From: an uncultured Lachnospiraceae bacterium
GTDB taxonomy: Bacteria; Bacillota; Clostridia; Lachnospirales; Lachnospiraceae
Reading direction: 5' to 3'
Assembly (NCBI GenBank): GCA_902777355.1
Contig: CACYTU010000046.1
Coordinates: 42,370-81,163 of the forward strand
DNA: 38,794 nt
Below, piece by piece: positions 1,283 through 34,978 of the stretch (positions within the stretch are counted from its first letter, which is position 1; every line of letters begins with the position of its first letter). Made by a program: the position numbers and the translations under genes. The notes under the pieces were generated by a model, which searched no databases, had not been told where the DNA came from, and saw only the letters and a program-made list of their open reading frames with translations.

Positions 1283-1373
1283 ACTCAGATATTGGTATTC
1301 TGAGCATATATGCCGGAACTCAGACACTGGCATTCTGAGCATACGTGCCGGCATTCAGATACCGGATTTCAGG
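1283..1373 (+). repeat. 35-bp direct tandem repeat, about 2.6 copies
   Basis: Unit 1 (1283-1317) and unit 2 (1318-1352) begin ACTCAG and share TTCTGAGCATAYGTGCCGG-type ends; unit 3 (from 1353) is partial. Each unit contains a CTCAGA/TCTGAG inverted pair, so it can also fold. It starts 14 bp after the stop of the DUF5721-like gene. Further degenerate TTCCAGA-containing segments continue to about 1460. Confidence 0.75.
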
Positions 1374-1460
1374 CTGTGAAATTTAGAATTCCAGATTGTC
1401 AAAAAAAATTTCAGACCGTTTGATGTAGAGTTCCAGACCGTAAATATCGAATTCCATATC

Positions 1461-1766
1461 AGAAATACAGATTTTCAGCTCCCGAATGCGGCGGGCAAAT
1501 ATTGAATTTCTGATCATGTATTTTGGTCAAAAAAGCTTTACTAATACAGCAGATACTGCTATATTGAGTAACTAAGAATTTCAGACTCTCCATGTGTGGG
1601 CGCTCGGGAAATGAACTCTCATGCCCTCACAGTCAGGGCATCTGCAGAATCCTTCACGCTTCTTTAATCACTGGACTCAGGTAGTCGGTGCCGCTCATGC
1701 AGGATTGCATGAAGCAGCATTCTACATAGGCAACGGCAGTTTATTATTTTTATGAAAGGATCGTGT
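1461..1766 (+). promoter_or_regulatory. Probable pyrB leader region
   Basis: An AT-rich stretch without a gene precedes pyrB. It contains two small hairpins: ATGCCCT/AGGGCAT (1621-1641) and CATGCA/TGCATG (1696-1711). Neither is followed by a U-run, and I see no convincing PyrR-binding or attenuator consensus. That the leader regulates pyrB is an inference from its length and position only. Confidence 0.3.
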
Positions 1767-2714
1767 ATGCGCCATATTCTGACACCACAGGACTTTACCG
1801 TAAGCGAGCTCGACGAACTGTTCAATCTTGCGGCGGACATTGAAGCGAATCCGAAAAAATACGCAAATGCCTGCCGCGGCAAAAAACTGGCGACACTCTT
1901 TTATGAACCCTCCACCCGGACGCGCCTCTCCACAGAGAGCGCAATGCTGAATATGGGCGGCAGTACCATGGGTTTCTCAGATGCCAGCAACTCCTCTGTT
2001 TCCAAAGGAGAAAGTGTTGCGGATACTATCCGGACTGTCTCCTGCTTCGCGGATATAGCCGCGATCCGGCATCCTAAAGAAGGCGCGGCCATGGTCGCTT
2101 CCCAGGTGTCCGGAATACCTGTCATCAACTGCGGAGATGGCGGACATCAGCATCCCACGCAGACACTGACGGATTTGATGACGATCCGCTCTCTGAAACA
2201 CAGACTCAATAACATGACCATAGGCCTGTGCGGCGACCTCAAATTCGGACGCACCGTCCACTCCCTGATCTCCGCCATGTCCCGCTATGAGGGCATCCGG
2301 TTCGTCTTCATCTCCCCCGATGAACTCAAAGTCCCCGACTATGTCATCGAAATGATCGACGAAAAGGGCATTCCCTACGAAGAATGCATCAGACTTGATG
2401 ACGTCATCACCCGTCTGGACATCCTCTATATGACCCGCGTACAGCGCGAGCGCTTCTTTAACGAAGAAGACTACATCCGACTGAAGGATTTTTACATCCT
2501 GACCAAAAAGCAGATGCGGAAAGCAAAAAATGACATGTATGTCCTGCATCCCCTGCCCCGCGTCAATGAGATCTCCGTGGAAGTGGACAGCGATCCCCGC
2601 GCCGCCTATTTCCGCCAGGTGCAGTACGGCGTATATGTCCGCATGGCTCTCATCCTCACACTTCTGGGTATCCGCGTAAACGAAGACGGAAGCGTCACCG
2701 AGCAGCCCCTGTGA
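1767..2714 (+). CDS. pyrB: Aspartate carbamoyltransferase catalytic chain
   Basis: Catalyses carbamoyl phosphate + L-aspartate to N-carbamoyl-L-aspartate, the committed step of pyrimidine synthesis. The 315 residues fit the family. Carbamoyl-phosphate motif STRTRLS lies at residues 49-55, the catalytic-loop Lys in SVSKGES at about 80, HPTQTL at 129-134 and HPLPRVNEI near 265. An upstream in-frame ATG exists at 1752, but AAAGGA at 1755-1760 sits 6 bases before the ATG at 1767 and overlaps the earlier start, so 1767 is chosen. pyrI follows after about 137 bp, so the enzyme is probably the E. coli-type heteromer of catalytic and regulatory chains, sensitive to nucleotide effectors. No other pyr genes are in the window. 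Confidence 0.97.
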
Positions 2715-2753
2715 GGCCGTGCGGCAGTCAATCATGTCAGATTTTGGTCATTC

Positions 2754-2835
2754 AAGACTCGCCCGCGAGTCTTGCGCGCATATCCCACGGCTGATATCCC
2801 ACGGCCGCAGTCACGGTATTGCGCAATGAAGAATA
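2754..2835 (+). repeat. Interspersed hairpin repeat, family A, copy 2
   Basis: Hairpin AAGACTCGC-CC-GCGAGTCTT (2754-2773), followed by TGCGCGCATATCCCACGGCTG and GGTATTGCGCAATGAAGAATAA. Relative to copy 1, two stem positions differ on both arms so that pairing is kept. It occupies most of the pyrB-pyrI gap, immediately before the pyrI ribosome binding site. Confidence 0.75.
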
Positions 2836-2851
2836 AACAGGAGGAACCCGA

Positions 2852-3292: not shown

Positions 3293-3324
3293 TATGCGGT
3301 GATACCACAAAGGAGATTCACCCA

Positions 3325-4197: not shown

Positions 4198-4203
4198 AAG
4201 TTC

Positions 4204-4223: not shown

Positions 4224-4230
4224 TTAACAG

Positions 4231-6206: not shown

Positions 6207-6390
6207 GTTCTTCGCACAGCTTTCGCAGAATTCTTCGCACAGCTTTCGCAGAATTCCTCGCACAGCTTTCGCAGAATTCCTCACACAGCTTTCGCAGAAT
6301 TCCTCACACAGCTTTCGCAGAATTACTCACACAGCTTTCACAGAATTACTCACACAGCTTTCACAGAATTATCCGCACAGCCTTCACAGA
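6207..6390 (-). repeat. 23-bp direct tandem repeat, 8 copies, overlapping the Maf stop codon
   Basis: Eight contiguous 23-bp units, each close to ATTCYTCRCACAGCTTTCRCAGA on the + strand, with gradual sequence drift from one end to the other. The last unit overlaps the stop of maf: on the - strand every unit reads TCTGTGA, the same bases that end the gene (CTG TGA). The unit length is not a multiple of 3. Open frames through it on the + strand are repeats of the array and not credible genes. Confidence 0.95.
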
Positions 6391-7022
6391 AGATCCCTAC
6401 TTGCCAGTTCATGGTACAGGCGCGCCGCCGGAAGGCCCACCACATTATTATAGTCGCCCCGGATCCCCCGGATAAAAATGCTGAAAGCCCCCTGAATTCC
6501 ATAGGCTCCCGCCTTGTCATAGGGCTCTTCCAGTGAAATATAGCCCTCGATCTCGCCGCGGTTCATAGGAAAAACATCAACCACCGTCTCTTCGCTGAAC
6601 GAAAAATACTTAATCTTTTCTGTCGAGCCGTCATACCCTTCTGCCGCAGCGGTCCCATCAGTCCAATCAGCCCCGTCGACCACACACACAGTCACGCCCG
6701 TGTACACGTGGTGCTCCCTGCCCTGGATCATGGTGATCATCCGTCCCGCATCGATCCGGTCTTCCGGCTTTCCGAGGATTTGCTGGTCTACGGCTACCAC
6801 AGTGTCAGCCCCTATGACAATAATGCGGTCCCCCTGGCAGGGACGGACTTTGCCGGCCACATCCATGGCCTTCTGCAGTGACAATTCCTCCACGACCTTA
6901 TCTGGTTTCGTGCTGCTGATGATCTCCTCTCCCTCTGAAGGAATCACTTCATAATCGCTGATCACCAGACGCAGCAGTTCCCTCCTGCGCGGAGAATTCG
7001 AAGCCAATATATATCTGTCCAT
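6384..7022 (-). CDS. maf: Maf-family nucleoside triphosphate pyrophosphatase
   Basis: 212 residues. The N-terminal signature ASNSPRRRELL is the Maf phosphate-binding motif; VIGADTVVAVD and the QILGKPED segment follow, then the GREHHVYTGV strand and YDKAGAYGIQGAFSIFI. The family hydrolyses non-canonical or modified nucleotides (dTTP/UTP and m5UTP types) and has been linked to septum formation. The product has the normal length, though the linker around 115-135 (DGADWTDGTAAAEGYDGSTEK) is longer than usual. AGGAGA lies about 12 bases before the ATG. The double Nudix gene lies 42 bp upstream on the same strand, so the two house-cleaning enzymes are likely cotranscribed. Confidence 0.95.
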   Translation of the reverse strand: MDRYILASNSPRRRELLRLVISDYEVIPSEGEEIISSTKPDKVVEELSLQKAMDVAGKVRPCQGDRIIVIGADTVVAVDQQILGKPEDRIDAGRMITMIQGREHHVYTGVTVCVVDGADWTDGTAAAEGYDGSTEKIKYFSFSEETVVDVFPMNRGEIEGYISLEEPYDKAGAYGIQGAFSIFIRGIRGDYNNVVGLPAARLYHELASRDLL

Positions 7023-8114: not shown

Positions 8115-8140
8115 CTCCTTATACCTGCCTTTCCATCACA

Positions 8141-8281
8141 GCGCGGTTTTCCTGCCTGTTATTCCCGGCGCAGTTTTCCTGCCTTTATTCACAGCGCGGT
8201 TTTCCTGCCTTTATTCACGGCGCGGTTTTCCTGCCTTTATTCACGGCGCGGTTTTCCTGCCTTTATTCACGGCGCGGTTTT
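8141..8281 (-). repeat. 26-bp direct tandem repeat, about 5.4 copies
   Basis: Units begin GCGCGGTTTTCCTGCC and end TTTATTCACG; unit 1 (8141-8167) is 27 bp and diverged, and the three units at 8194-8271 are almost identical. It lies just upstream of the double Nudix start (27 bp), so its - strand copy, which reads AAAGGCAGG, would be in that gene's leader. Confidence 0.95.
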
Positions 8282-8451
8282 CTCCGCCCCCTTCTCAATG
8301 ACACGGCCTTCTTCTCATATTTTCCAGAGTAAGGGCCGTCCCGCCTTTTTTCAAATGAGAGACTTCCTCCGCCCGCGCGCAACAGGCACCGGCCGCTTGC
8401 CTGCGGCAGGTGCCTGCTTTGTAAACCATTTCTATTGTCTACCGGGGCAGT

Positions 8452-8563
8452 CTCAGTAATTTTTTCTCAGTAATCTTTTCTCAGCAACTTTTTCTCAGTA
8501 ACTTTTTCTCAGTAATCTTTTCTCAGTAACTTTTTCTCAGTAACCTTTTCTCAGTAACCTTTC
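8452..8563 (-). repeat. 14-bp direct tandem repeat, 8 copies, overlapping the acylphosphatase stop
   Basis: Eight 14-bp units, CTCAGTAAYYTTTT on the + strand. Read on the - strand each unit contains GGT/GAT/GTT TAC-like bases followed by TGAG; the real gene ends GGT TAC TGA inside the first of these units. The array therefore repeats the last codons and the stop of the gene. Confidence 0.95.
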
Positions 8564-9021
8564 ACCTGGAAGCCGCGCTCACCCTGCACGACAGGGATCA
8601 CATTCGTCTCCATATGCTCGATCCTGATCCAGCGGCCATCCTGCTGGAGTTTCAGGATCGCGTGATCGATCACAGCGGAAGGTCCCTGGATCTCCATCTC
8701 TACCCTGCCGTCAGACAGGTTTGATACCCATCCGGTAAGCCCCAGATTTCTGGCACCGTACATGGCATGATAGCGGAATCCCACTCCCTGTACACGGCCG
8801 GAAAAAATGATATGGCGGCGCTCAACCGCTGTTTCTCTCATGCGTCTCAGCTCCTCCTCGCCCAGTTCAGCATCCTTTGTTCCGGAGTCAGAATCCCCGG
8901 AATCCGCTCCTCCTGCTCCCATCATGCCAAGCACATCGGAAGGGAAAAGCACTTGAAGAATCTTTTGAAGGAGCTTTTGGAACCATTCAACTATTTTCTC
9001 CCAAAAACTCTTCTCTTCCAT
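8551..9021 (-). CDS. Acylphosphatase with an N-terminal helix
   Basis: The C-terminal domain (about residues 65-156) is a complete acylphosphatase: HIIFSGRVQGVGFRYH holds the catalytic Arg, and GWVSNLSDGRVEMEIQG the catalytic Asn. Such enzymes hydrolyse acyl phosphates. Ahead of it is an unusual extension, FWEKIVEWFQKLLQKILQVLF, an amphipathic helix, then an Asp/Ser/Gly-rich linker. Family members are usually about 90 residues. The frame is open to 9096, but GAGGGG 8 bases before the ATG at 9021 makes that the better start. The gene starts 93 bp after the histidine kinase stop, so the two may be cotranscribed. Its stop lies within a 14-bp tandem array. Confidence 0.85.
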   Translation of the reverse strand: MEEKSFWEKIVEWFQKLLQKILQVLFPSDVLGMMGAGGADSGDSDSGTKDAELGEEELRRMRETAVERRHIIFSGRVQGVGFRYHAMYGARNLGLTGWVSNLSDGRVEMEIQGPSAVIDHAILKLQQDGRWIRIEHMETNVIPVVQGERGFQVKGY

Positions 9022-9114
9022 AAAGGAAACCCCTCTTTCCGGACAAGGGCATTTCTGCTCCTGCCGCGATACCGAAACGTTCAGCCGCTCTGTCATTCAC
9101 AAGGAGCTTCCGCT

Positions 9115-11181
9115 TCAGCTTTCCCTGTGTCTGAATTTTCGCATATGCGACTGCAGAATCCGTACATCCAGGGGTTTGGCTATGTATGCATCCATTCCCG
9201 CCTCAAAAGACTTCTGGATCCCCTCCTCAAAGGTACTTGCCGTCATGGCAATGATCGGCACAGTCTTTGCGTCCGGCCGCTTCAGTTCACGGATCGCCAC
9301 GGCAGCGGCATACCCGTCCATGACCGGCATCTGCAGATCCATAAGGATCGCGTCATAATATCCCGGCTGTGAATTGCTGAACATGGCCAGCGCCGCTCTT
9401 CCGTTACGAGCGATCTCACAGCGGGCTCCGGTCATCTCCACAAGCTCCTTGACCATATCCGCGTTCATAGTATTGTCTTCCGCCGCCAGAAAACGGAAGC
9501 CTGCCAATCCGACTGCGTCGTCCGGTTCATCCGAAGTTCTGTCTGCGGTCTTTTTCACGCAGACTTCCTCCACTACCTTATGCAGGGCGGAAATGAAGAA
9601 AGGTTTTTGAAGGACATGACTCAGGCCCAGTGCCTTGCATTCCTCTTCGCGAATCTGCCTTCCCGACATCAGGAAGACCATAGGAAGATTAATCCAGGAC
9701 ATCATCCTGAGGCTTCCCATCACTTCCTGCCATTCCATATCCTGAAGGTCTTCATCCAGCAGAATAACATCGATAACATTGCCGAAGGCGCACTGCTGCT
9801 CGATCATCTTGACCGCGCCGAAGCCCGATGAAATAGTCACCGTATCGACGCCCGCGCTCTCCATGAGATTGCGGATCCGCGCAGCCTCCTGAATATTTCC
9901 GTTGACGACCACCATGCGGTGAATGCCGTGTTCTTCCCAGAAATCCGAGGTGCCGATATTCACAATCTTGAGCGTAAGCCTGACCCAGATAATCGTGCCC
10001 TCGCCCGGCAGGCTCTGTGCGGAAATCGAACCGCCCATCATATCCACCAGCTTCCTGGTCAGCCAGATCCCCGTTCCGGGACCGGGGGCATTTTCCTTAT
10101 TATCGGGGTTATCGCTGCGGAAATAATCCTGCAGCTGCTTCTGGTCCATACCGATGCCGGTGTCCCTTATTTCGAAGATCAGGGAGATATCCTCATTCTT
10201 CTCATCGGGAGTACCTGTGACAGTCAGCTCAACGCGGCCCCCGGCAGGAGTATATTTCACAGCGTTGGAGAGAACTCCCCGCAGAACTTCCATGATCCTG
10301 GCTTTGTCGCCGATGACGATATCATGCTCGATTCCTTCCGACGAGAATATAAATTTCTGGCTGTTGGCCTTTGCCAGGCTGGAAAAAGTCGCGCAGATCT
10401 CATCCAGCATCAGTCCCAGCCCAAACTCATCCGATTCCAGGCCGGCATCCACCGATTCAATCCTGCTCATATCCAGTATCTGGTCCAGGGTGGAGAGAAG
10501 TTCCTGGCATGCCATACCGATCCTGTGAGAATACTCCAGGACTTTGGAAGGATTCTGTGAATTCTTCATGAGCAGCATGACAAATCCCGAAATGGTACTG
10601 ATCGGCACCCTGAAATCGTGGGACATACTGGCCAGGAAATAACCTGCTGCCCGGTTGACGTCCTCTGTCTGCTGGATCATCATCTCCTCAAAATCACCCC
10701 TGACCCGCGCTGATTTGCACAGAAGGACAACCGCGACACGGTCGGATCTTCCGTAGGGCAGATGGATCACATAGACCAGAAACTGACGCCGTGTCCCATT
10801 TGTCCTGTGTATGAAAATCTCTTCCCTGCCGTTATGGTCTTCGATGTTTTCAAAAGAATGTCCGATCATACGGACATCCTCCATGGCCTCAGCCCTGTCA
10901 ATTCCCAGAGCCGCATCTATATTTGTAGTAATGAATTCCGCCTTGAAAGTGGTCACTGACATAACCAGGATGACATGGTATGTTCCGCGGACAATTGAAT
11001 CAAACACCTGGTCATGACTAAGAATGTCGTTGTCGCGGATCCGCAGTTCCTGACGAAGCTTATCATTCTCCTCGAAAAGCGCGCGTATCTCATCCGCCGT
11101 CATCTTCGAGATCATTTCGTCAGAACGCTCAAGCATTTCCTTTGATACATTCTCCAAACCCTTCCTCCTGTTCTTATCCAT
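9115..11181 (-). CDS. Soluble hybrid histidine kinase with one degenerate and one intact receiver
   Basis: 688 residues without membrane segments. Order: coiled N-terminal segment (about 10-60), a PAS-like region (60-155), dimerisation helix with H188 in SMSHDFRVPIS, the ATPase with N box LSNAVKYTPAGG and G boxes DTGIGMD and GPGTGIWLTRKLV, then two receiver domains. The first receiver (about 415-535) has VVVNGN where the acidic pair should be, but keeps ILLDED and the Lys in LQKPF, so it probably cannot bind Mg2+ normally. The second (about 555-680) is complete, with AAEDN, ILMDLQMP, the Thr in AMTAS and AKPLD. No output domain or partner gene is adjacent. The putative promoter lies at 11454-11482. 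Confidence 0.92.
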   Translation of the reverse strand: MDKNRRKGLENVSKEMLERSDEMISKMTADEIRALFEENDKLRQELRIRDNDILSHDQVFDSIVRGTYHVILVMSVTTFKAEFITTNIDAALGIDRAEAMEDVRMIGHSFENIEDHNGREEIFIHRTNGTRRQFLVYVIHLPYGRSDRVAVVLLCKSARVRGDFEEMMIQQTEDVNRAAGYFLASMSHDFRVPISTISGFVMLLMKNSQNPSKVLEYSHRIGMACQELLSTLDQILDMSRIESVDAGLESDEFGLGLMLDEICATFSSLAKANSQKFIFSSEGIEHDIVIGDKARIMEVLRGVLSNAVKYTPAGGRVELTVTGTPDEKNEDISLIFEIRDTGIGMDQKQLQDYFRSDNPDNKENAPGPGTGIWLTRKLVDMMGGSISAQSLPGEGTIIWVRLTLKIVNIGTSDFWEEHGIHRMVVVNGNIQEAARIRNLMESAGVDTVTISSGFGAVKMIEQQCAFGNVIDVILLDEDLQDMEWQEVMGSLRMMSWINLPMVFLMSGRQIREEECKALGLSHVLQKPFFISALHKVVEEVCVKKTADRTSDEPDDAVGLAGFRFLAAEDNTMNADMVKELVEMTGARCEIARNGRAALAMFSNSQPGYYDAILMDLQMPVMDGYAAAVAIRELKRPDAKTVPIIAMTASTFEEGIQKSFEAGMDAYIAKPLDVRILQSHMRKFRHRES

Positions 11182-11200
11182 TTCCCAAAGAATTTCATTT

Positions 11201-11330
11201 CCTGAGGATCACTTTTTCCTGAGGATCACTTTTTCCTGAGGATTACTTTTTCCTGAGGATTACCTTCTCCTGAGGTTTATCTTCTCCTGAGGTTTATCTT
11301 TTCCTGAGGATTATCTTTTCCCGAAGGAAT
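11201..11330 (-). repeat. 17-bp direct tandem repeat, 7-8 copies
   Basis: Units from 11201, 17 bp each: CCTGAGGATCACTTTTT, drifting to CCTGAGGTTTATCTTTT, with a last degenerate copy near 11320. It lies between the histidine kinase start and its promoter, so it would be transcribed as a roughly 130-bp leader segment. Confidence 0.95.
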
Positions 11331-11585: not shown

Positions 11586-11728
11586 TTTTCCCCTTTCAGA
11601 CCGATCCGGGCTGACAGGTTTTCCCGTTCATACTGATTCGGGCTGACAGGTTTTCCCCTTTCAGACCGATCCCGGCTGACAGGTTTTCCCCGTTCAGACC
11701 GATCCGGGCTGACAGGTTTTCCCGTTCA
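11586..11728 (-). repeat. 33-bp direct tandem repeat, about 4.4 copies
   Basis: Units start TTTTCCCC and end GGGCTGACAGG at 11586, 11619, 11651, 11684 and 11717, with one-base length variation. It begins about 30 bp after the stop of the glutamate-cysteine ligase, so it lies in its 3' region. Together with the 17-bp array and the promoter it fills the 580-bp gap between two genes. Confidence 0.92.
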
Positions 11729-11760
11729 GGTCAGATCCTCCTGTGAGATGCAAGACTCAC

Positions 11761-13140
11761 TCAGATCAGGAAAAGCTGTTCGCAGCAGGTATCCTGCAGG
11801 CCTTTACAGCATTCCTCCTGCAGCCTCACGGCGCGCTCCATGCCTTTCTCCAGAAAAGTTCCGGAGAACTGCTCCCGCACCCTGGCGGCATAGCGGGTCC
11901 GGGGATGAAGGACCTTTTTCCGCTCAAACTCGAGGACATCCGGCACCCAGTCCGGAATCTCCCCGGATAATCCTCTGTAAAAATCTATTATGCGGTCCAG
12001 CAGGTACATGGCTGCGCCGCGTGCCGAAACCGCCGCCTGATCCCTGAACTCAGGCATGACGATCCGGACTGTGTCCAGATCGTAGCGGGCTGCACTCTTG
12101 AAATTCTGTACCGCCATCACCTGCTCCGACATGGAGAGTACCCTTCGGGGCATCGAGGCCAGCCAGACCAGGAAAAGCTGTACGAACTGAACATCTCTCA
12201 CGTCAATGCCGCTCTCCTCAAAGGGATTGATATCAAACATGCGGAGCTCCAGATGATCGGAGCCTCCCTCCTTCAGGGCGTAAAGACTGTACGCGCCCTT
12301 GGGTTTGAGGCGGACAGGATAGTAGAGCTCCGAAGCCGCGCACAAAAGCCCCTTATCCAGATAGCTCTGAATGCTGTCCGAATATCTCTGTATATTAGTA
12401 TAATCCAGGACCGGAGAAAAAGCATTCCAGTAACCCAGTTCACTGCATCGGACACTGGCCATCCCCGAAAAGACATCTCTTCCCCCGATTTCCTGCTCTC
12501 CTGTCTCCCCGGACCGGGCGCGGGTCCTGATCCCTGTCTCATAAAAGCTGGCGTCCAGCACCGGACTGGCAGCGGTCAGAATTACCAGGAGCCAGCCGTA
12601 TGCGGCGCATTTCTCTGCCAGTTCCAGATAAAAACTGTCTCTGAATGAGCGGGACCTGCCTCCCCCGCGGTGCGAAAACTCCTTTTTCAGAAGTTCATCC
12701 GAGAAGGAATAATTGACATGGATTCCCGAGAAAGTCATTTTGTACCTTCCGTAGCGGGCTGACAGATACTCCCGGTAGGCTGTCGCATGCGCGCGGTCCC
12801 CCGTAAACTGCGCAATAGGGATGTCCTCCTCGCAGTCCAGATAAGGGGGATTGGAAAAAGGCCAGATATATTCCCTGACGGGCTGCAGGGACAGTTTTTT
12901 CTGAAGACAGCGCCCGTAAGCCTCAAGCGCACGGACAGAGCCTTCCGCGGAAGGCTCCGTACTGGTATTGATCTCTGTCTGGTTCTCAGAGAAATCCATC
13001 GAGACATGGGAATTTCCGGGAAGAGGATTCGGTGTGTGCGCCATGGAAGCATCCGCAAGCACACGCAGTCCCTCTTTTTCCAGACCGAATTTTCCTTCTA
13101 AAAGCAGATTTCTGATCTCAGGATCGTCTATATGAAGCAT
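11761..13140 (-). CDS. gshA: Glutamate-cysteine ligase (GshA-type), stand-alone
   Basis: 459 residues. FGLEKEGLRV near the start is the Glu-rich ATP/Mg2+ binding strand. It is followed by HVSMDFSENQTEINT, the FSGIHVNYSF strand and HLELRMFDINPFEESGID, all typical of the GshA type and of the GshA half of the fused GshAB. It catalyses ATP-dependent joining of glutamate and cysteine, the first step of glutathione synthesis. No ATP-grasp GshB part is attached and none is nearby, so gamma-glutamylcysteine may be the product unless GshB lies elsewhere. The GH13 gene lies 45 bp upstream on the same strand. Confidence 0.87.
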   Translation of the reverse strand: MLHIDDPEIRNLLLEGKFGLEKEGLRVLADASMAHTPNPLPGNSHVSMDFSENQTEINTSTEPSAEGSVRALEAYGRCLQKKLSLQPVREYIWPFSNPPYLDCEEDIPIAQFTGDRAHATAYREYLSARYGRYKMTFSGIHVNYSFSDELLKKEFSHRGGGRSRSFRDSFYLELAEKCAAYGWLLVILTAASPVLDASFYETGIRTRARSGETGEQEIGGRDVFSGMASVRCSELGYWNAFSPVLDYTNIQRYSDSIQSYLDKGLLCAASELYYPVRLKPKGAYSLYALKEGGSDHLELRMFDINPFEESGIDVRDVQFVQLFLVWLASMPRRVLSMSEQVMAVQNFKSAARYDLDTVRIVMPEFRDQAAVSARGAAMYLLDRIIDFYRGLSGEIPDWVPDVLEFERKKVLHPRTRYAARVREQFSGTFLEKGMERAVRLQEECCKGLQDTCCEQLFLI

Positions 13141-14939: not shown

Positions 14940-17900
14940 TCATATGGACTCAGTCTGCTGCTGCTCTTCCCAGAATAAACGGACATCTCTGGCCGCCGAC
15001 TCACTGTCCATGGCGGGGGGGCATCCCCATTCTACAGGAAACAGTTCCCGGTTTGCCCTCTCTTCGAACCTCTCGTCCATCAGAAGGACGATCCCCCGGT
15101 CTGTCTCGGTCCGGATCACTCTGCCGGCCGCCTGCAGGACCTTGTTCATTCCCGGGAAGCGATAGGCAAAGTCATAGCCGTCACGTCCCTTCTTTGAAAA
15201 ATAGTCCCGCAGAAACTCACGCCGGGAATCTACAGGCGGAATGCCTGTCCCCACGACGAAAGTGCCGATCAGGCGGTCGTCCCTGAGATCGATTCCCTCT
15301 CCGAACATTCCTCCCATCACGCAGAAGCCGACAAGGTACCTGTCGGGCAGGACCTCTTCAAACGCCTGCAGAAAGGCTGTCTTCTCCGCCTCCTCCATAC
15401 GCCGCTTCTGGGCAATGACGCGGATCTTCCCGCCACCGCCGGTCAGCTGGTCATCTGCCGGCAGCGGGTCCTCAACCGGCTGTTTGCCCCTGTCCGAAAG
15501 CAGAGGTCCGTCCGGAAGCAAGGGGCTGCCCGAAAGCAAATGTCCGTCCGGAAGCAAGGGTCTGCCCGAAAGCAGATGTTCGTCCGGAAGCAAGGGGCTG
15601 CCCGAAAGCAAAGGTCCGTCCGGAAGCGCGTCCCTGTCCGGGACGTCCGGAGATTTGTCCCCGTCCGGCAGTGCTGTTTTTCCCCTGCCCCAGCCCGCGC
15701 TGTGCGAAAAAATGCCGAAAGCATCCCGGGTGACCCGCTGAGGGATTTGGCAAATCCTGCAGAAAGCCTCATATACACTTTCCATAAAAATATAAGATGG
15801 AAAGAAGGCCAGGTAGTTTCCCGGCCTGCAGGAGACAGTCCCGGCTATGCTGCGCGCGATCCTCTCATAGTTGTCAGCGTTCCTGTTCCGATAGCGGCTG
15901 GTCACATCATTCACGATGACAACTTTCCTCCGGGCTGGAGAAAACGAGGAGCGGGCATACATTTCAAAGTCCTCAGGGCTGCCGCCCAGAAGACTCTTGT
16001 AATACTGGATCGGAAGAAATGTGGCCGAAAACAGGATAGAGGAGACGGCTCCCGCCATACAGTCTTTCAGCTTTCCCGACGGATCCGCGCAATACAGGTG
16101 CAGTGAGAATCCCCCCGCGGAAAAACGGCTCCCGCCATTCCCGGTTCCATAGACAACATAATGTTCGTCCATCTCTTCCAGCATCTGTCTGAAGTGGGAA
16201 ATCCCGAAATAAAACTCCAGAAGTTCCCCGATTCCGGATTCCGCGGCTGGACCCGGGTCTGCTTCCCTTTCTGTCTTTGCGGCGGTTTCCGGATCCACTT
16301 CAGGTCCAAGACCCGCTTTCCTTCCGGACTCCGGCTTCAAATCCATTTCAGGACCTGTTTCCGCCGCCTTTCCCGGGAATCTCCCTGTGCCCGCCGCCTC
16401 ATACAGGGCCTCGTTTTTTCTCTCCTGCTCCAGGATCCAGCGGATCACATCATCCACTTCCCTGAGGGAATCCAGAAGTTCCTCCCGTCGGTCTTCAAAT
16501 GAAGGCAGATGGAAATGGGACTGCTGACCCGCTCTTCCGGCCGGTTTCTCTTCCGTCTTTTGTCCGACGGAGGCCTCCGTGTCGAGGAGCCGCAGGACCC
16601 GCACCAGTCCCTTCATCTTTTTCCACAGGCGCGGCCACACATTTTTTATCGATTTTCTGAACAGACGCACCTCCCGGTATGACAGGGAAGCGCTGTACAT
16701 ATCCCGCCCTCTCTCGAGCAGGTTATGAGCCTCATCGATCAGCAGGATCTTTCTCTCCGCGGAGAATCCGTTTCCCGGGTCTCCGAAAAAGCGGGCCAGC
16801 CTTGCCTCCGGATGAAAAGCGTAATTGTAGTCGCATATGATCACATCCGCGAAATCACAGGCATCCAGGGATAGTTCATAGGGACAGACCCTGTGCCTTC
16901 CGGCGCATTCGCTGATCATCTCCCCGGTCACAGGCTCGCCTCCGGCGGCCTCCTGCAGCAGTTCCCTGAGCGCGGCATTGACGCGGTCATAGTGGCCGTC
17001 CGCCCAGCTGCAATGGGAAGGACTGCAGTCCACAGTCTCACAGGGACAGATCCTCTCTCTGGATGTCAGGACCAGGCTCCGGATACTGAGCCCCTTTCCT
17101 TTCAGGATGCCCAGCGCCTCCGTCGCCGCCCTGCCTGCCACCGCTTTGGCAGTCAGATAAAAGATCCGGTCCGCTTTGCCTCCGCCGACCGCCTTGAGTG
17201 CCGGGAAGAGAACAGCCATGGTCTTTCCGGTCCCGGTGGGAGCCTGCAGAAAGAGTTTTCTCCCGTGCACGATGGTCCGGTAAACTCCTGCGGCGAGATC
17301 ATACTGCCCTTCTCTGTAGGGGAAGGGAAAAACCATTTCCTCCAGGGTCCTGTCCCTGCTCTCCTCGAAAGAGACTCTCACTGCCAGCCAGGGAATGTAG
17401 TCTCTGATCAGTCCTTCGAACCAGGCCTTCAGCTCCCCGAACTCCCGGACCTCATAAAAGCGCTTCACTTCCCCGGTCACCTGGCTGCAATAGGTCATTC
17501 TGATGCCGATCCGGTCCAGGCCTTCCTTTTCCGCATAGATAAAAGCATAGCAGCGCGCCTGGGCCAGATGCACCTGCTCAGGTGCCCTCAGGTCCCGGAA
17601 GCCACGGAATACTGTCTTGATCTCATCGATCATCCACAGACCGGCGGGTTCCCCGCCGCCCTGAGAAATGCTTCCGGCAGCTTCCTTCACGCTATGAGAA
17701 ATGCCGGCAGGCTCCTCCCCGCTATGGTAGATGCCGTCAGCACGCCCTTCCAGGCGCAGAATATATTTTTTCTCCTGCTCCGCCGGGGCTCCGGCCGCAA
17801 TCAGCTGCCCGGGATCGATCTCGATTTCCCTGCTGAGAGCTGCTTCCGCCTTATAACCCGGCCCTTCTTTCTTCTGGAGCATGCGATGGATCCGGGCTCC

Positions 17901-18017: not shown

Positions 18018-18229
18018 AATACAAGACCAGCCCACGGGGCCTGCACTCCGGATGCCTGCTGCAGCGCCTCTGCCCGGCAAAGCTTTGCAGGGGCGGCTTC
18101 TGCCGCACCGGATCCGTGCCTGTCCCCGCGGAGACAAACAAAATGCCTGAAGGACTTTTCCCCTCCGGCATCGAATACCCGTTCATTATATCACATAAAG
18201 TCTTCTTAATCATACTAATATTTGTATTA

Positions 18230-19871: not shown

Positions 19872-21205
<1,334 letters not shown>

Positions 21206-21298: not shown

Positions 21299-21300
21299 AT

Positions 21301-21390: not shown

Positions 21391-21410
21391 CGGCAGGGAA
21401 AGCTTTTTTC

Positions 21411-21520
21411 GTGTCACCCGGCTGAAACTGTAAGTTTTTTTGTGTCATACACCTGAAACAGTAAGATTTTTTTTGTTTTGTGTCATGCACCTGAAACAGT
21501 AAGATTTTTTTGTAAAAATT
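21411..21520. repeat. Direct tandem repeat of about 32-38 bp, 3 copies
   Basis: Three units starting GTGTCA.. and containing CTGAAACAGTAAG followed by T-runs (near 21411, 21441 and 21479). It lies between the family B repeat and the 22-bp array. Confidence 0.75.
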
Positions 21521-21611: not shown

Positions 21612-21699
21612 GCAGCAAAACGGTTTCATTTCAGCAGCAAAACGGTTTCATTTCAGCAGCAAAAGGGTTTCATTTTAGCAATAAAACGGTTTCATTTTA
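21612..21699. repeat. 22-bp direct tandem repeat, 4 copies
   Basis: Units at 21612, 21634, 21656 and 21678: GCAGCAAAACGGTTTCATTT followed by CA or TA. It lies about 210 bp before the rRNA methyltransferase start. No gene is recognised in the rest of the 21206-21907 gap apart from the terminator and repeats. Confidence 0.93.
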
Positions 21700-23122: not shown

Positions 23123-23160
23123 TAATAATCCGGAATCAAATAATCACAATAATTACAGGG

Positions 23161-23280
23161 GCAAATGATTTTTCATACGGGCAATCAATTTCTCATACGG
23201 GCAATCAATTTCTCATACGGGCAATCAATTTCTCATCCGGGCAAATGATTTCCGGATATAATGATTTCTCATCCGGGCAA
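23161..23280 (+). repeat. 20-bp direct tandem repeat, 4 clear copies plus degenerate ones
   Basis: Units of 20 bp (23161, 23181, 23201, 23221): GCAATCAATTTCTCATACGG, followed by degenerate GCAAATGATTTCCGGATATA-type copies to about 23280. It starts about 40 bp after the methyltransferase stop and ends about 65 bp before the RdgB-like start. Confidence 0.93.
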
Positions 23281-23345: not shown

Positions 23346-24026
23346 ATGAGTAAACAGAAATATCAGATCATCTTCGCAACAGGTAATCAGGGAAAGATCC
23401 GCGAGATCAAGGCTATTGTTGAGGAAAGGAAAAACGCAGCCGGCCTGCAGGAAGGTATGGATGCCTCAGCCCCCTGTGTTCCCGAAATCGAGGTCCTCTC
23501 TATGAAAGAAGCCGGCGTCCCCTCCGATCCGGAAGAGACAGGAGCCACATTCGAGGAGAACGCTCTGATCAAAGCACAGGCTGTCTACGACCTGCTCCTC
23601 TCCCGTCCCGCTCCTGAAGGCACCGTCCGCATCGTGATGAGCGATGACTCGGGGCTGGAGATTGACGCGCTGGACAAGGCTCCCGGGGTCCACTCAGCCC
23701 GTTATATGGGTTACGATACAGACTACAGGCTGCGTATGGAACACCTCCTGGAAAGGCTGGAAGGCGTCCCTGAGGACAAGCGCACAGCCCGCTTTGTGGC
23801 TACGGTGGCAGCTATTCTCCCCGACGGCAGCTCTATGGTCGTGCGCGGTACGATGGAGGGCAGGATCGGCCACAAGATCTGCGGACAGAACGGCTTCGGA
23901 TACGACCCTTTCTTCTATCCAGACGGATTCGATATGACCAGCGCCGAGATGTCCCCCGAGCAAAAAAACAGCATCAGTCACAGAGGCAAGGCTCTCCGGG
24001 CCATGATGTCAAAGCTGGGCCTCTAG
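23346..24026 (+). CDS. rdgB: XTP/dITP pyrophosphatase (RdgB/HAM1 family)
   Basis: 226 residues. It hydrolyses deaminated purine nucleotides (dITP, XTP) to keep them out of DNA. Motifs: FATGNQGKIREIK at the N-terminus, ETGATFEENALIKA, DDSGLEIDALDKAPGVHSARYMG, FVATVAAILPDG and NGFGYDPFFYP, then SHRGKALRAM. A short insertion (about 15 residues, Ala/Met/Glu rich) separates the N-terminal motif from the SMKEAG strand. The upstream AAAGGA is about 14 bases from the ATG, a weak fit, but no better start is seen. Its sister sanitation genes maf and Nudix are elsewhere in the window. Confidence 0.96.
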   Translation: MSKQKYQIIFATGNQGKIREIKAIVEERKNAAGLQEGMDASAPCVPEIEVLSMKEAGVPSDPEETGATFEENALIKAQAVYDLLLSRPAPEGTVRIVMSDDSGLEIDALDKAPGVHSARYMGYDTDYRLRMEHLLERLEGVPEDKRTARFVATVAAILPDGSSMVVRGTMEGRIGHKICGQNGFGYDPFFYPDGFDMTSAEMSPEQKNSISHRGKALRAMMSKLGL

Positions 24027-25127: not shown

Positions 25128-25399
25128 TTATTTTTTTGCCCGCCGCCTGAAGCCGGTTCTCTGGTCAAAAAAAATCAAAAAATAAGGCCCCTGCCGGCCT
25201 CCCGGACTGCCTGTTCAGCATCTTTTATAAGGCATTTTTCCGGTCTCAGGACATACGATTCAGGGAATTTCGCCCGCCCCGCGCTCCGACTGATTATTTC
25301 CAATTTTAAAAAATTCCCCTGCTTATGTAGTATAATTAATAACAGAAAAGCAGTTCACCCGATGTGGGGAAAATTCAGCAGAAAAAGGAGGGCTCAACC

Positions 25400-26080
25400 A
25401 TGAAATCAACCGAAAAAAACAAAATCGTAAGAGTATTGGGGTTATTATTGATTTTCATGCTGGTGTTTACAGTCATTCCAGCCATGCCCGGCGAGGCTGC
25501 ATCGACCAAGTCAAAAGCAATCTCCGCTTACAAAAAGAAACTGTCAGCAAGCAAGGTGACCGTCCTGCCCGCCGGCAAGAAAGTCATGAACAGAAACGAC
25601 GATTATGTGACTTACAGATACAGCAAAAGGGCAAAAGTCAAGTTTGCGATTGCCTATATCAACAACGACAATGTCCCCGAACTGATCCTGGAAGACAAGA
25701 ACTATGGCTATGGCGTGTGGGCCTATAAGGGAGGTAAAGTAAAATGTGTGCTCTGGGGGGACACCTATTACAGTCCCTATGGGTACTACAGAAAGAAGGG
25801 GATTTATGAAGATATTGCCTGGTCAGAAGGAACCCCCTTCACCAAGTGCTTTTATCAGTTCAAAAACGGAAAGATGACCGGAAAGCTTCATAAATTTGTG
25901 TATGAACAAGGACGGCCCGAGGCAGATTATTACCAGACCTCCAGTTCCTCCCGGTATCCAAAGGAAATTTCCAAAGCTGTCTTTAAAAAGAAACTGAAAT
26001 CTTATGTCGGGAACACCAAAGTGACAAAGCTCTCGCTCAAATCAAATACCAGTTCAAACCGGAAAAAATATCTCAGATGA
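25400..26080 (+). CDS. Secreted protein of unknown function, paralog 1
   Basis: 226 residues from the ATG at 25400, chosen because AGGAGG at about 25386-25391 is 8 bases upstream. Signal peptide: KNKIVRV, a hydrophobic core (LGLLLIFMLVFTVIP) and a likely cut after GEAA. The mature protein is Lys/Tyr-rich and basic: KAISAYKKKLSASKVTVLP, then FAIAYINNDNVPELILED, a YxxxDxNxxPELIL segment like the Asp/Asn-rich 'DxDxDGxPELI' motif of Clostridia surface proteins. The 27577 gene is clearly its paralog. No enzyme fold is recognised. The gene is flanked upstream by the tRNA-Leu and downstream by two terminators. Confidence 0.78.
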   Translation: MKSTEKNKIVRVLGLLLIFMLVFTVIPAMPGEAASTKSKAISAYKKKLSASKVTVLPAGKKVMNRNDDYVTYRYSKRAKVKFAIAYINNDNVPELILEDKNYGYGVWAYKGGKVKCVLWGDTYYSPYGYYRKKGIYEDIAWSEGTPFTKCFYQFKNGKMTGKLHKFVYEQGRPEADYYQTSSSSRYPKEISKAVFKKKLKSYVGNTKVTKLSLKSNTSSNRKKYLR

Positions 26081-27576: not shown

Positions 27577-28251
27577 ATGAAATCAACCGAAAAAGTCAAA
27601 ACAAAAAACAAAATCCTGAGGGCACTGCAATTATTACTGATTCTGACGCTGGTGTTTACAGCCATTCCCGCCATGCCCGGCGAGGCCGCATCGACCAAGT
27701 CGAAGGCACTTTCCGCTTATAAAAAGAAACTCTCCGCCAGCAAGGTGACCGTCCTGCCTCCGGGGAAAAAGGTCACCGTCAATTACTACGATACTGTAAC
27801 TTACAGATACAGCAAAAGCGCTGCTGTCAAATTTGCCATCGCCTACATTGACAACGACAATATCCCCGAACTGATCCTTCAGGATAACAGATATTGCTAC
27901 GGTGTCTGGACCTATAAGAGCGGTAAGGTCAGATGCGTGCATTGGGGTGACAGCCTGACCGATCCCTACGGGTACTACAAAAAGAAGGGAATTTTTGAAG
28001 ATCTTCATTATACAGAAGGTTCCCCTTTTTACAAATATTTTTATCAGTTCAGGAACGGTAAAATGACTCATAAGCTGACCAAAATAGTGCAAGAACAAGG
28101 CCAGCCCTATGCAGAGTACATGATTCGTTCCAGGATGGTCTCCAAAGCCGTCTTCAAGAAGAAACTGAAATCCTATGTCGGGAACACACATGTGACAAAA
28201 ATCTCTCTCAGGAAGAATACCCGCGCAAACCGGAAAAAATACCTCAAATAA
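27577..28251 (+). CDS. Secreted protein of unknown function, paralog 2
   Basis: 224 residues. AAAGGAGG at about 27560-27567 supports the ATG. Signal peptide: KNKILRALQLLLILTLVFTAIPAMPGEAA. The mature part closely follows paralog 1 (25400): STKSKALSAYKKKLSASKVTVLP, FAIAYIDNDNIPELIL, YGYYKKKGIFED, KAVFKKKLKSYVGNTHVTKIS. Clear tandem gene duplication, but the two copies flank the DeoR gene and sit inside the fructose locus, on the opposite strand. It is basic and Tyr-rich like a surface-binding protein; the function is unknown. Confidence 0.78.
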   Translation: MKSTEKVKTKNKILRALQLLLILTLVFTAIPAMPGEAASTKSKALSAYKKKLSASKVTVLPPGKKVTVNYYDTVTYRYSKSAAVKFAIAYIDNDNIPELILQDNRYCYGVWTYKSGKVRCVHWGDSLTDPYGYYKKKGIFEDLHYTEGSPFYKYFYQFRNGKMTHKLTKIVQEQGQPYAEYMIRSRMVSKAVFKKKLKSYVGNTHVTKISLRKNTRANRKKYLK

Positions 28252-30454: not shown

Positions 30455-30549
30455 AGATCAAATTCCTCCTTTTACACGTAACTTAGTGTGTAAACAGACA
30501 TTCCGGTCATCCTCTTCGACTATGTTCCAGACAATGTTCTGCGACCTTG

Positions 30550-30640
30550 TTCTGTGACAATGCTCTGCAGCAATGCTCTGTGGCAATGCTCTATGGCAAT
30601 GCTCTGTGGCAATACTCTGCAGCAATGCTCTGCGGCCAGA
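30550..30640 (-). repeat. 13-bp direct tandem repeat, about 7 copies
   Basis: Units of 13 bp (CTCTGTGGCAATG and variants CTCTGCAGCAATG, CTCTATGGCAATG) at 30550, 30563, 30576, 30589, 30602, 30615 and 30628. It lies in the fruK-fruA gap. Further degenerate copies precede it (TTCTGCGACCTTG). Confidence 0.93.
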
Positions 30641-31960: not shown

Positions 31961-31963
31961 AAA

Positions 31964-32076
31964 AGGGCAGAGACGGCACTGCCGTCCTCTGCCCTCCGAC
32001 CGGCTGGTCCGAGTCCGCCACAAGGGCTGGTCCGGGTCCGCCGCAAGGCGGAAAACTTCATTGTATGGACCGTATC
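31964..32076 (+). repeat. Interspersed repeat, family B, copy 3
   Basis: GGGCAGAGACGGC-ACT-GCCGTCCTCTGCCC keeps pairing despite the A/T change relative to copy 2; then CCGACCGGCTGGTCC, an internal duplicated GGTCCG..TCCGCC and GGCGGAAAA. It ends near TGGACCGTATCA, just before the stop of the secreted-protein gene. Confidence 0.8.
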
Positions 32077-32115
32077 AAAAAAAGGTATGCCCTCTGTTCA
32101 GGCATGCCGGGCAGA

Positions 32116-33467: not shown

Positions 33468-34553
33468 TCACCCGCCACAAGTGTGCCTGATGTCAGCACA
33501 ATCCTGTCCTTCCCTGATCGTCACCTTCTCCTTTACACGATAGGGCAGGGTTCCCTGAGTGTTGAAATAAGTCTTCATCATCATTTCGCCCAGCAGCCCT
33601 GTTATCATCAGCAGCATACCTGCTGTGATGAAGAAGATCGTCAGGATCATCTGTATAATAAAATATCGCATATGTCTGGTCAGAAAATAACCTGCCACTG
33701 TCCAGCCTCCGAATACTATAGCCAGAATATTGAAGGCCAGACTTAAACCTCCAAGCAGGTACAGCGGCCGGCTGGCGTATTTGCTCCAGAACCAGACAGA
33801 CAGCATATCCAGGAATCCCTTCACGATCCGCAAAAGGCTGTACTTCGACCGTCCATTGAGCCTGGGACGGTGATTGACTTCCATCTCACCGACCTCAAAG
33901 CCCCGGATCTTCAGGAGAGCCGGTATGAAACGATGCTGTTCCCCGAAGAGCGTCAGGTCCTCAAAGCATTCCCGCCTGTAGATTTTCAGAGTACACCCAC
34001 TGTCATGGATCCCGTCATGAATGATCATGTAGCGCAGCAGATTGGCTCCGCGTGACACAAAACGTTTCATAAAGGAATCCTGCCGGCTCCTGCGCCAGCC
34101 GGACACGACATCCAGGTCGTTCTCCATCAGAAAGCGGATCATTTCCGGAATGTCCGCGGGATCATTCTGACCATCCCCGTCCATAGCCGCGATCAGGTCC
34201 TTTGAAGCCGCCTTAAACCCGCAGTCGAGGGCGGAAGTCTGTCCATAATTCTTCCGGAACCGGATATATGTCAGCGGGCTGAGCGAACGGCAGACCCTGT
34301 CCGTACCGTCCACAGATCCATCGTCGACTATGATGATCTCGTAATCAAAGGGATGACCGTCTATTCCCGCTTCGCAGACCGCCTTTGTCTCTTCAAACAG
34401 TTTCCCTATATTCTCCGCTTCATTGTAAACCGGTATAACGATCGAGATTGAAATATTACTATTTGAGTCATTCTGATGGCCAGGTGAGTTATTCTGATGG
34501 CCAGACGGGTTATTCTTATGGCTGGATGAGTTATTCTTATGTTGCATTTCCAT
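33468..34553 (-). CDS. GT2-family glycosyltransferase with two membrane segments
   Basis: 361 residues. The GT-A catalytic domain (about 33-270) begins SISIVIPVYNEAENIGKLF, has IIVDDGSVDGTDRVC (first Asp pair), AMDGDGQNDPADIP (DxD) and SGWRRSRQDSF, typical of DPM1/GtrB-like transferases that put sugar on a polyprenyl phosphate. Two transmembrane helices follow (near 265-290 and 295-325, LFYILGGL and MILTIFFITAGMLLMITGLLG). Residues 5-32 form a seven-residue tandem repeat (HKNNSSS, HKNNPSG, HQNNSPG, HQNDSNS). Ahead of the ATG AGGA is about 11 bases away, so the start is plausible but not certain. MBOAT and a C-terminal fragment lie upstream. Confidence 0.9.
   Translation of the reverse strand: MEMQHKNNSSSHKNNPSGHQNNSPGHQNDSNSNISISIVIPVYNEAENIGKLFEETKAVCEAGIDGHPFDYEIIIVDDGSVDGTDRVCRSLSPLTYIRFRKNYGQTSALDCGFKAASKDLIAAMDGDGQNDPADIPEMIRFLMENDLDVVSGWRRSRQDSFMKRFVSRGANLLRYMIIHDGIHDSGCTLKIYRRECFEDLTLFGEQHRFIPALLKIRGFEVGEMEVNHRPRLNGRSKYSLLRIVKGFLDMLSVWFWSKYASRPLYLLGGLSLAFNILAIVFGGWTVAGYFLTRHMRYFIIQMILTIFFITAGMLLMITGLLGEMMMKTYFNTQGTLPYRVKEKVTIREGQDCADIRHTCGG
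34458..34541 (-). repeat. In-frame 21-bp array at the GT2 N-terminus, 4 units
   Basis: Four 21-bp units that encode HKNNSSS, HKNNPSG, HQNNSPG and HQNDSNS. Being a multiple of 3, it does not disturb the frame and lies before the catalytic domain. Confidence 0.85.
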
Positions 34554-34583
34554 TTGTCATTCTTTCCTGTAGTCGTGAGCAAG

Positions 34584-34628
34584 ACTACGCCGGGGATATG
34601 TGCATCCACATCCCCGGCGTAGTTTTTT
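34584..34628. terminator. Long GC-rich hairpin, terminator-like on the + strand
   Basis: ACTACGCCGGGGAT (34584-34597) pairs exactly with ATCCCCGGCGTAGT (34610-34623), followed by TTTTT on the + strand. No + strand gene precedes it. On the - strand, where the GT2 gene lies, it is preceded but not followed by a T-rich run, so the direction of function is unclear. Confidence 0.6.
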
Positions 34629-34637
34629 CAGAACCCC

Positions 34638-34868
34638 TTAATACATAAAAATATTGCTGAACTGATACTCCGGATCCGCACCGCCTGTATGATCAACATA
34701 ACCGCCATTTAAAATGACCGTTACATTTCCACTAAACACAGACAGGTCTATCACATATTGATGAACCTTGTGATCCAGGTCTTTATCATTTGCTTCTGCC
34801 TTTTTCAGGAGCTTTCCCCCGGAATCATATATAAAAGCTGTCAGGCATCCGCGGCCGGCAACTTTCAT
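34638..34868 (-). CDS. Small ORF resembling an orphan C-terminal domain
   Basis: 76 residues ending HTGGADPEYQFSNIFMY. The style (GGYVDHTGGADPEY, strand-rich) resembles the C-terminus of extracytoplasmic domains in polysaccharide membrane proteins, but I cannot assign a family. It has no signal peptide. An AAGGGGAAC ribosome-binding-like stretch 6 bases before the ATG is provided by the adjoining 27-bp array, so translation is possible. It may be a remnant left by deletion. Confidence 0.5.
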   Translation of the reverse strand: MKVAGRGCLTAFIYDSGGKLLKKAEANDKDLDHKVHQYVIDLSVFSGNVTVILNGGYVDHTGGADPEYQFSNIFMY

Positions 34869-34870
34869 AG

Positions 34871-34978
34871 GTTCCCCTTAAAAGCCAAAATATACAAGTT
34901 CCTCTTAAAAGCTGAAATATTCAGGTCCCTCTCATAAACCGAAATAAACAAGTTCCTCTTAAAAACCAAAATATACGA
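34871..34978 (-). repeat. 27-bp direct tandem repeat, 4 copies, overlapping the MBOAT stop
   Basis: Units at 34871, 34898, 34925 and 34952: GTTCCTCTTAAAAGCCAAAA, then TATACAA. On the - strand each unit resembles the end of the MBOAT gene (VYFGF stop) and contains TAAGAGGAAC, so it repeats a stop codon next to a ribosome-binding-like AGAGGAA. Confidence 0.93.

Follow-up and report, generated by a model that had tools for sequence, protein, structure and literature searches.

The first origin of tandem repeats from non-repetitive DNA is called unknown by Bachar et al. (PMC6954433), who also describe the closest known mechanism to the one considered here. In Escherichia coli, the topoisomerase I variant TopA R168C produces de novo tandem duplications of 2-19 bp (in galK) that are independent of existing repeats, and its point-mutation rate is reported as unchanged; a second variant, TopA R35P, produces short deletions. 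In flies and primates, most short insertions are tandem duplications, according to PMC2374710. Here, we consider the short tandem arrays in a 38,794-bp stretch of DNA (the window; G000:C46:42370-81163) from an uncultured Lachnospiraceae bacterium, for which an earlier note had proposed a repeat-generating mechanism that no named system predicts. The TopA R168C mutator does predict it.

In total, our observations are consistent with a naturally raised, mostly homology-independent process of tandem duplication that acts genome-wide and is filtered by selection, rather than with a targeted system, and we put the probability of this reading at roughly 0.6. Arrays are denser in one group of related genomes on a protein tree; no array is common to relatives at about 80-85% gene identity at the places examined; and most newly born duplications need no microhomology. 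The observation made in the earlier note is thus confirmed, and its interpretation is partly supported.

Array density in the window, its genome and its relatives

The host genome, G000, is an assembly of 3.87 Mb in 150 contigs (84% complete, 5.1% contamination), which we compared within a genus set of 62 genomes. Its closest named relatives are metagenome-assembled genomes (MAGs) recorded as Lachnospiraceae and Eubacteriales, with strain NK3A20 more distant, and names of the type RUG or Sheep_Duodenum hint that these relatives came from ruminant guts. Our genome sample consisted of the window and 40 stretches of G000 (one, without readable bases, was dropped), together 751,656 bases or 19% of the assembly; in this and the other genome samples, an array was accepted at a period of 8-100 and a score of at least 80 in Tandem Repeats Finder (TRF). 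The G000 sample holds 222 arrays, which is 2.95 per 10 kb and 3.84% of bases, and only 3 of 39 pieces of at least 5 kb (window included) are without any; by extrapolation, the whole assembly would hold about 1,100. The same measure gives 0.32 per 10 kb in 13 congeners and 0.07 in E. coli K-12. The density in G000 is therefore about ninefold that of the congeners, contrary to the outcome named in the earlier note as fatal to its proposal, namely, arrays no denser than in other Clostridia.

The excess is graded among relatives. Genes were called with a simple caller trained on the sample, and arrays were classed as intergenic if half or less of their length was coding and as coding if 90% or more was. 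Per 10 kb of non-coding DNA, intergenic arrays number 8.80 in G000 and 8.54 in G044 (28 arrays; 180 kb sampled), followed by 5.06 in G017, 4.07 in G008, 4.04 in G042, 3.81 in G071 and 3.69 in G053; the figures are 1.08 in the 13 other congeners (7 arrays; 442 kb sampled), 1.15 in loci of other Lachnospiraceae and 0.40 in E. coli K-12 (one array in 150 kb). Small later samples gave 5.73 for G068 (3 arrays), 5.03 for G074 (1 array) and 0 for G019 and G063. The per-stretch median is 2.50 in G000 (39 stretches), 1.32 in the other clade genomes (34) and 0 in the non-clade congeners (31).

The clade referred to here is defined on a tree of the asnA product, a single protein, rooted only at the midpoint. 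On this tree, G000, G071, G017, G008, G042, G053, G044 and G009 are split from 14 other rows with support of 100/99, and G000 and G044, which have the highest densities, occupy separate parts of it. Of the 13 low-density congeners, eight lie outside the group, as does G063; G012, G001, G005, G006, G002, G068 and G074 are absent from the tree, and G022 and G057 are on it with their density unmeasured. The closest relative compared, G071, has 84% identity to the window genome at asnA and belongs to another species; the locus L072, used below, belongs to G071 (4,011 bases identical).

The loci of other Lachnospiraceae were fetched with rlmL as bait, and their overall rate of 0.61 arrays per 10 kb falls to 0.31 without the 1.5 kb upstream of rlmL; the higher figure is inflated because a small protein gene adjoins the bait. 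Upstream of rlmL, 23 of 25 such loci, which were picked mostly for an array there from a total of 66, encode a low-complexity protein of 47-91 aa that is rich in Asn, Gln and Ser (L098 to L150; 190-1300 bp upstream, with L117 at about 3746 and L150 at about 9771). Most of the 31 arrays found in the 1.5 kb before rlmL are probably repeats of this gene. Four examples of the protein gave no Pfam or NCBIfam match at E 0.1.

In the window itself, TRF returns 15 merged arrays at a score of at least 50, whereas 50 dinucleotide-preserving shuffles average 0.04 and never exceed 1. All eleven of the arrays noted previously are recovered within about 20 bp of the starts given for them, and TRF gives, in addition, one intergenic 23-bp pair and three arrays within genes. 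The arrays, with gene strands as plus or minus, are as follows.

1283..1359: 35 bp x 2.2, intergenic, adjoining the end of a DUF5721 gene (Pfam PF18988); TRF score 105
6208..6391: 23 bp x 8.0, covering the stop codon of a Maf-family gene (6384-7022, minus; PF02545); TRF score 263
8124..8282: 26 bp x 6.0, upstream of a NUDIX gene (PF00293); TRF score 258
8451..8562: 14 bp x 8 with a 42-bp higher-order period, covering the stop codon of an acylphosphatase gene (8551-9096, minus; PF00708); TRF score 196
11198..11321: 17 bp x 7.3, upstream of a hybrid histidine kinase gene (9115-11181, minus; named from Pfam); TRF score 164
11586..11729: 33 bp x 4.4 with a 65-bp higher-order period, downstream of a glutamate-cysteine ligase gene (11761-13140, minus; PF04262); TRF scores 232-241
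15490..15627: 36 bp x 3.8, period a multiple of 3, within a large helicase-like gene (14940-18137, minus; name read from the translation); TRF score 227
17674..17741: 30 bp x 2.3, period a multiple of 3, within the same helicase-like gene (14940-18137, minus); TRF score 80
21404..21513: 38 bp, downstream of gdhA (name read from the translation); TRF score 141 for 21438-21511
21612..21697: 22 bp x 3.9, in the gap between gdhA and an RlmL-like gene, upstream of the latter; TRF score 144
23159..23252: 20 bp x 3.8 with a 40-bp higher-order period, between the RlmL-like gene and a gene at 23346-24026 (plus); TRF score 153
30530..30632: 13 bp with a 26-bp higher-order period, between PTS-like and PfkB-like kinase genes (names read from translations); TRF score 122
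32002..32048: 23 bp x 2.0, intergenic, absent from the earlier list; TRF score 80
34464..34541: 21 bp x 3.7, period a multiple of 3, at the N-terminus of a glycosyltransferase-like gene (33468-34553, minus); TRF score 100
34871..34976: 27 bp x 3.9, directly upstream of a small open reading frame (ORF; 34638-34868, minus); TRF score 128

Relative to L072, the stretch 15490..15627 is missing from the orthologue of the helicase-like gene, and the gap downstream of gdhA measures 614 bp in the window versus 191 bp. Three further features of the window were seen. Near position 20550, gdhA lacks about 35-40 bp that are present in L072 and L073, which breaks the frame through either a mutation or an assembly error. 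An MBOAT-like gene (read from translations) is split into two overlapping frames at 35437-35465. Positions 25364-26080 and 27577-28251 hold similar neighboring genes with signal-peptide-like starts, the first without a Pfam match.

Unit sequence, reading frame and place of the arrays

The units are, with few exceptions, unrelated to one another. No match to any other array was found for 214 of the 222, and the remaining 8 fall into clusters of 4, 2 and 2; none of the window arrays matches another of the 222. A mobile or dispersed repeat element was rejected as a general source on this ground, and the view that a local repeat-generating process is at work, put forward earlier from the window arrays, is supported. 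The four-array cluster (L036 at 440, L043 at 2986, L044 at 7389 and 11082) has the motif AAGAACCGTCCCC in common in those of its arrays shown, and a few arrays may therefore have grown from a dispersed element. Copies drift along an array, as had been proposed: among intergenic arrays of about four or more copies, with those of in-register neighbor identity below 0.7 left out, copy identity is 0.856 between neighbors (131 pairs), 0.683 at five copies' distance (26 pairs) and 0.763 at six (12 pairs). Best-match identity is 0.859 for edge copies (n=58) and 0.938 for inner copies (n=102).

No array was shared between species at the orthologous places examined. Such a place was located in at least one clade genome for 20 of the 222 arrays, giving 52 comparisons that are not independent, as many share a gap; matching units were found in 0, an array of another unit in 19 and no array in 33, of which 2 show a match of 12-16 bp. 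In the gap after the RlmL-like gene, for example, the period is 20 bp in G000, 14 bp in G008, 40 bp (unmatched) in G017, 26 bp in G044 and 21 bp in L074, and there is no array in G071, G053 or G042.

Arrays are found in genes as well as in gaps. The original description of arrays filling gene gaps covers only part of this: in the window, 9 of 24 gaps of at least 50 bp hold an array, and in the sample, 70 of the 222 lie within genes, 150 are intergenic and 2 fall between the classes. All 70 coding arrays have periods divisible by 3, as do all 158 coding arrays from 14 genome sets, whereas intergenic periods are spread 50/44/56 over residues 0, 1 and 2. This result is partly built in, in that an ORF caller stops at any array that shifts the frame and would report a gap at that place. 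We therefore asked how often a gap looks like a split gene, with both flanks matching separate parts of one known protein. Among 350 codirectional gaps, this was so for 1 of 28 testable gaps with an array versus 3 of 51 testable gaps without one; thus, "intergenic" arrays lie mostly in true gaps, and frame-shifting arrays are rare within genes. Density is 8.80 per 10 kb in non-coding DNA versus 1.20 in coding DNA, and arrays cover 10.5% of non-coding bases. Because arrays also stand in genes, and there in frame only, the gap pattern points to a genome-wide process filtered by selection, and the preference for gaps would be mainly an effect of that selection. An origin peculiar to gene gaps does not fit, given that genes are struck too and retain the in-frame arrays.

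Within gaps, arrays favor the ends of genes. In codirectional gaps, the fifth nearest the upstream stop codon holds 40 of 97 arrays. The fraction of sequence in arrays is 0.016-0.046 up to 60 bp from start codons and 0.083-0.169 in the first 60 bp past stop codons, climbing to 0.23 at 60-100 bp past them. The exact two-copy duplications that we call births, defined below, follow suit, with 1 in 47 kb within 60 bp before starts versus 14 in 46 kb within 60 bp after stops (G000 and clade summed). In our reading, the stop-side bias reflects a greater tolerance of arrays right behind genes, although the mechanism itself may favor gene ends. Arrays occur in 125 of 475 gaps, at 0.26-0.39 per gap in five length classes from 20 to 3,000 bp. 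Crowding was not found (15 gaps with at least two arrays versus 24 under random placement by length), and neither was a purine strand bias (0.550 in arrays, 0.551 in gaps).

New duplications, candidate enzymes and competing explanations

Births were counted as exact duplications of two full copies, with a period of 10-80 and no further repeat in the flanks, on non-overlapping clade stretches with strands merged; they are standing duplications and not per-generation rates. Microhomology, h, is the number of matching bases extra to the two full copies. In 1,417 kb of G000 and the clade there are 72 births, with h of 0 in 31, 1 in 15, 2 in 8 and at least 3 in 18 (0.431, 0.208, 0.111 and 0.250, compared with 0.556, 0.277, 0.103 and 0.064 expected at random sites). 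Most births thus need no microhomology, 54 of the 72 having 0-2 bp (94% at random sites). Their periods lie between 10 and 32 bp, thinning out toward the longer end, apart from a single one of 61. By genome, births number 39 in G000 (752 kb), 19 in G044 (180 kb) and 10 in G008 (140 kb). At periods up to 60, low-density congeners have 7 births per Mb and other Lachnospiraceae 14, with 80 in G068 and 25 in G074, both small samples, and E. coli K-12 has 0 in 150 kb. Non-coding births of period 11-30 number 18 in 146 kb of G000, 13 in 28 kb of G044, 5 in 62 kb of mid-density genomes and 2 in 67 kb of other congeners. Hairpin-driven birth was rejected, as 39 birth sites fold less than matched sites (-0.085 versus -0.106 kcal/mol per nt, P = 0.039), and no breakpoint motif was seen by eye in the microhomology-free births.

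Based on these patterns, we posit that stretches of about 10-30 bp would first be duplicated head to tail at non-repetitive sites, mostly without microhomology beyond chance, perhaps when staggered breaks, paired nicks or trapped cleavage complexes are filled in and resealed, and not by classical slippage. Once two copies are present, slippage or unequal exchange could add one or a few units at a time, and point mutations would yield the drift. Frame-shifting events in genes and events near start codons would then be removed by selection, so that arrays come to concentrate in gaps, above all on the stop-codon side. The expected outcome is the standing density that we observe, raised in one genome group with its top in G000 and G044, and with arrays unshared at orthologous places. 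We infer a raised birth rate, rather than persistence only. A more specific proposal, which we hold tentatively and at somewhat less than even odds, is that a natural clade of gut Lachnospiraceae carries a heritable, homology-independent mutator that works through an enzyme route new to bacteria lacking Ku and LigD and continually writes new non-coding DNA and disordered protein loops.

Several observations weigh against a raised, homology-independent birth process. Births with h of at least 3 exceed expectation (18 of 72 versus 6.4%, P = 5e-7), and part of them therefore fit slippage or the remnants of longer, collapsed arrays. Births are uneven within the clade, the low counts being 2 in G017 (95 kb), 1 each in G042 (71 kb) and G071 (44 kb) and 0 in both G053 (80 kb) and G009 (43 kb), and G009, though it has 5 coding arrays, has 0 intergenic ones in 38 kb. 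The non-coding birth excess of G000 at periods 11-30 is only about fourfold, below the ninefold array excess, and slower loss may therefore contribute. From their record names, the clade genomes look like short-read MAGs. Family-by-family tests of repair and topoisomerase candidates turned up no genetic cause.

Those tests covered several families. The MutS_V domain (paralogues included) is present in 62 of 62 genomes, with a best E of 9e-87 in G000, and the 5' nuclease domain of PolA in 59 of 62, G000 included (not found in G062, G074 and G042). RecJ is found in 20 of 20 genomes, the ExoVII large subunit in 19 of 20 (not G042) and SbcD in 18 of 20 (not G015 and G075), all three of them in G000. 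The absences are scattered, and there is therefore no clade-wide gap in ExoVII, RecJ, SbcD or the PolA domain; loss of MutS, the PolA flap nuclease, ExoVII, RecJ or SbcD was rejected as a cause, since all are present in G000. Conserved blocks are kept in TopB, which has loop insertions in all clade rows and smaller ones in the low-density G014 and G075 (0.13 and 0 per 10 kb). All 8 of the clade MutS proteins aligned have a loop insertion, which we read as an effect and not a cause because the low-density G014 has one too. MutL and PolA of the clade have loop insertions as well (PolA in five clade genomes). Judged from the sequences, such insertions look like coding footprints of the duplication process, tolerated in flexible loops. 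The genes concerned (PolA, MutS, MutL and TopB of the clade) are in L248, L249 and L293 (G000:C6, C12). A general lengthening of proteins relative to other congeners was not found in G000 (36 reciprocal pairs, mean +0.7 aa, P = 0.6) or in the mid-density genomes (46 pairs, +6.6 aa, P = 0.57); G044 proteins are somewhat longer (36 pairs, +5.5 aa, P = 0.042, uncorrected). Some larger genomes have more than two type IA topoisomerase genes (G000:C121, C22; G042; G068; G044).

Could it be that arrays in this lineage are simply removed more slowly? If efficient contraction had been lost, or selection on non-coding DNA relaxed, ordinary duplications would persist and grow. We consider this explanation unlikely, if worth serious attention: it would account for the gap between the array and birth excesses, for the genomes in which births are few or absent although most of them bear arrays (G017, G071, G042, G053 and G009) and for the high non-coding fraction of G000 (0.23). 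Exact two-copy duplications are nonetheless in excess in G000, G044 and G008, and the failure of all 52 orthologous comparisons to share an array speaks against mere persistence. RecJ, ExoVII and SbcD limit repeat instability, and their presence in G000 is a further point against slower removal.

A related possibility, to which we give about one chance in four, is ordinary variable-number tandem repeat (VNTR) biology, in which slipped-strand mispairing at chance short repeats both starts and expands arrays, with this lineage at the high end of a continuum. The excess of births with at least 3 bp of microhomology fits it, as do the higher-order periods (42 = 3x14, 65 = 33+32, 40 = 2x20), which are as expected from expansion by slippage or exchange, and low-density genomes have some arrays and births too. 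However, 31 of the 72 births have no microhomology (0.556 expected at random sites) and 54 have at most 2 bp (0.936 expected), and a ninefold density over congeners together with the grouping on the tree asks for more than slippage. Slipped replication, one of the two routes suggested in the earlier note, does not fit most births and may stand for the minority with longer matches.

Given that the arrays adjoin genes, do they serve a selected function, regulatory or phase-variable, like the tandem repeats of mycobacterial promoters? Phase-variable promoter repeats are described in Mycobacterium tuberculosis (PMC12817950), and intergenic tandem repeats in lake Planctomycetota are reported to accompany many non-coding deletions (PMC9426551). 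We regard such a function as improbable here: the units are unrelated and unshared at orthologous places, start codons are avoided rather than favored, genes carry arrays too, and purine content is equal in arrays and gaps.

A natural copy of the TopA mutator, with an altered residue at the R168 or R35 site, is slightly less probable again. The signature fits, as such a mutator makes short tandem duplications de novo whether or not repeats are present. However, all 20 genus TopA proteins that we aligned with the E. coli enzyme retain R35 and R168, and no gap-free column sets the nine clade proteins apart from an invariant rest, which refutes this explanation for both residues. One of the nine, G013, is absent from the tree, and its row is without part of the N-terminal half; the G000 row is without its first residues through the start call. 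A367G occurs in G044 alone and not in G000. Changes in expression or supercoiling may still play a part.

That the arrays are artefacts of assembling a metagenome is hard to credit. The fragmentation, incompleteness and contamination given above would favor it, and the 4-contig G077 is poor in arrays (0.12 per 10 kb in 80 kb), but G077 (as L085) lies outside the group on the asnA tree, coding periods are divisible by 3 without exception, copies differ by point changes, and several separately assembled genomes of the group agree while other multi-contig congeners are without the excess. The weakest candidate is fill-in of staggered double-strand breaks joined by bacterial non-homologous end joining (NHEJ; Ku and LigD), which microhomology-free duplications would fit and whose eukaryotic counterpart makes small tandem duplications (PMC8355091 and PMC11477040), but which is refuted as stated, within the limits of a set in which many genomes are incomplete, by the failure to find Ku in any of 61 genus genomes (control search positive in 1 of 14) or an ATP-dependent DNA ligase domain in any of 62 (positive in 6 of 14). 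Another end-joining enzyme, not of the Ku/LigD kind, is possible.

Comparison with known systems

If the raised, selection-filtered duplication process is as we propose, several species would have retained a biased mutator in nature, and gaps and protein loops would gain new sequence from it. The group offers dozens of young duplications along with low-density relatives for contrast, and the origin of tandem repeats thus becomes testable by comparison. Our searches of an open-licence library listed no title on tandem-repeat density in this group.

By form, the arrays are minisatellites: the 222 consist of imperfect units head to tail, with periods of 10-99 (filter 8-100). In this they resemble the bacterial minisatellites or VNTRs described in PMC12817950 and PMC9426551, with their intergenic head-to-tail arrays of drifting copies with tens of base pairs per unit. 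They differ in that arrays here take up about 10% of non-coding DNA at about nine times the congener density, that none of 52 orthologous comparisons shares a unit and that all coding periods are divisible by 3. The duplications made in eukaryotes by fill-in and end joining (PMC8355091; Top2 mutants, PMC11477040) are alike in needing no flanking repeats, whereas NHEJ is required there, and Ku and an ATP-dependent ligase were not found in the genomes of this genus that were searched. The likeness to TopA R168C (PMC6954433) lies in short head-to-tail duplications that arise at non-repetitive sites independently of existing repeats. That system, however, is a laboratory point mutant of one enzyme, whereas here a natural species group has R168 and R35 intact; and its duplications are 2-19 bp long, whereas the births seen here are mostly of 10-32 bp (shorter ones being uncounted) and the arrays run up to many copies.

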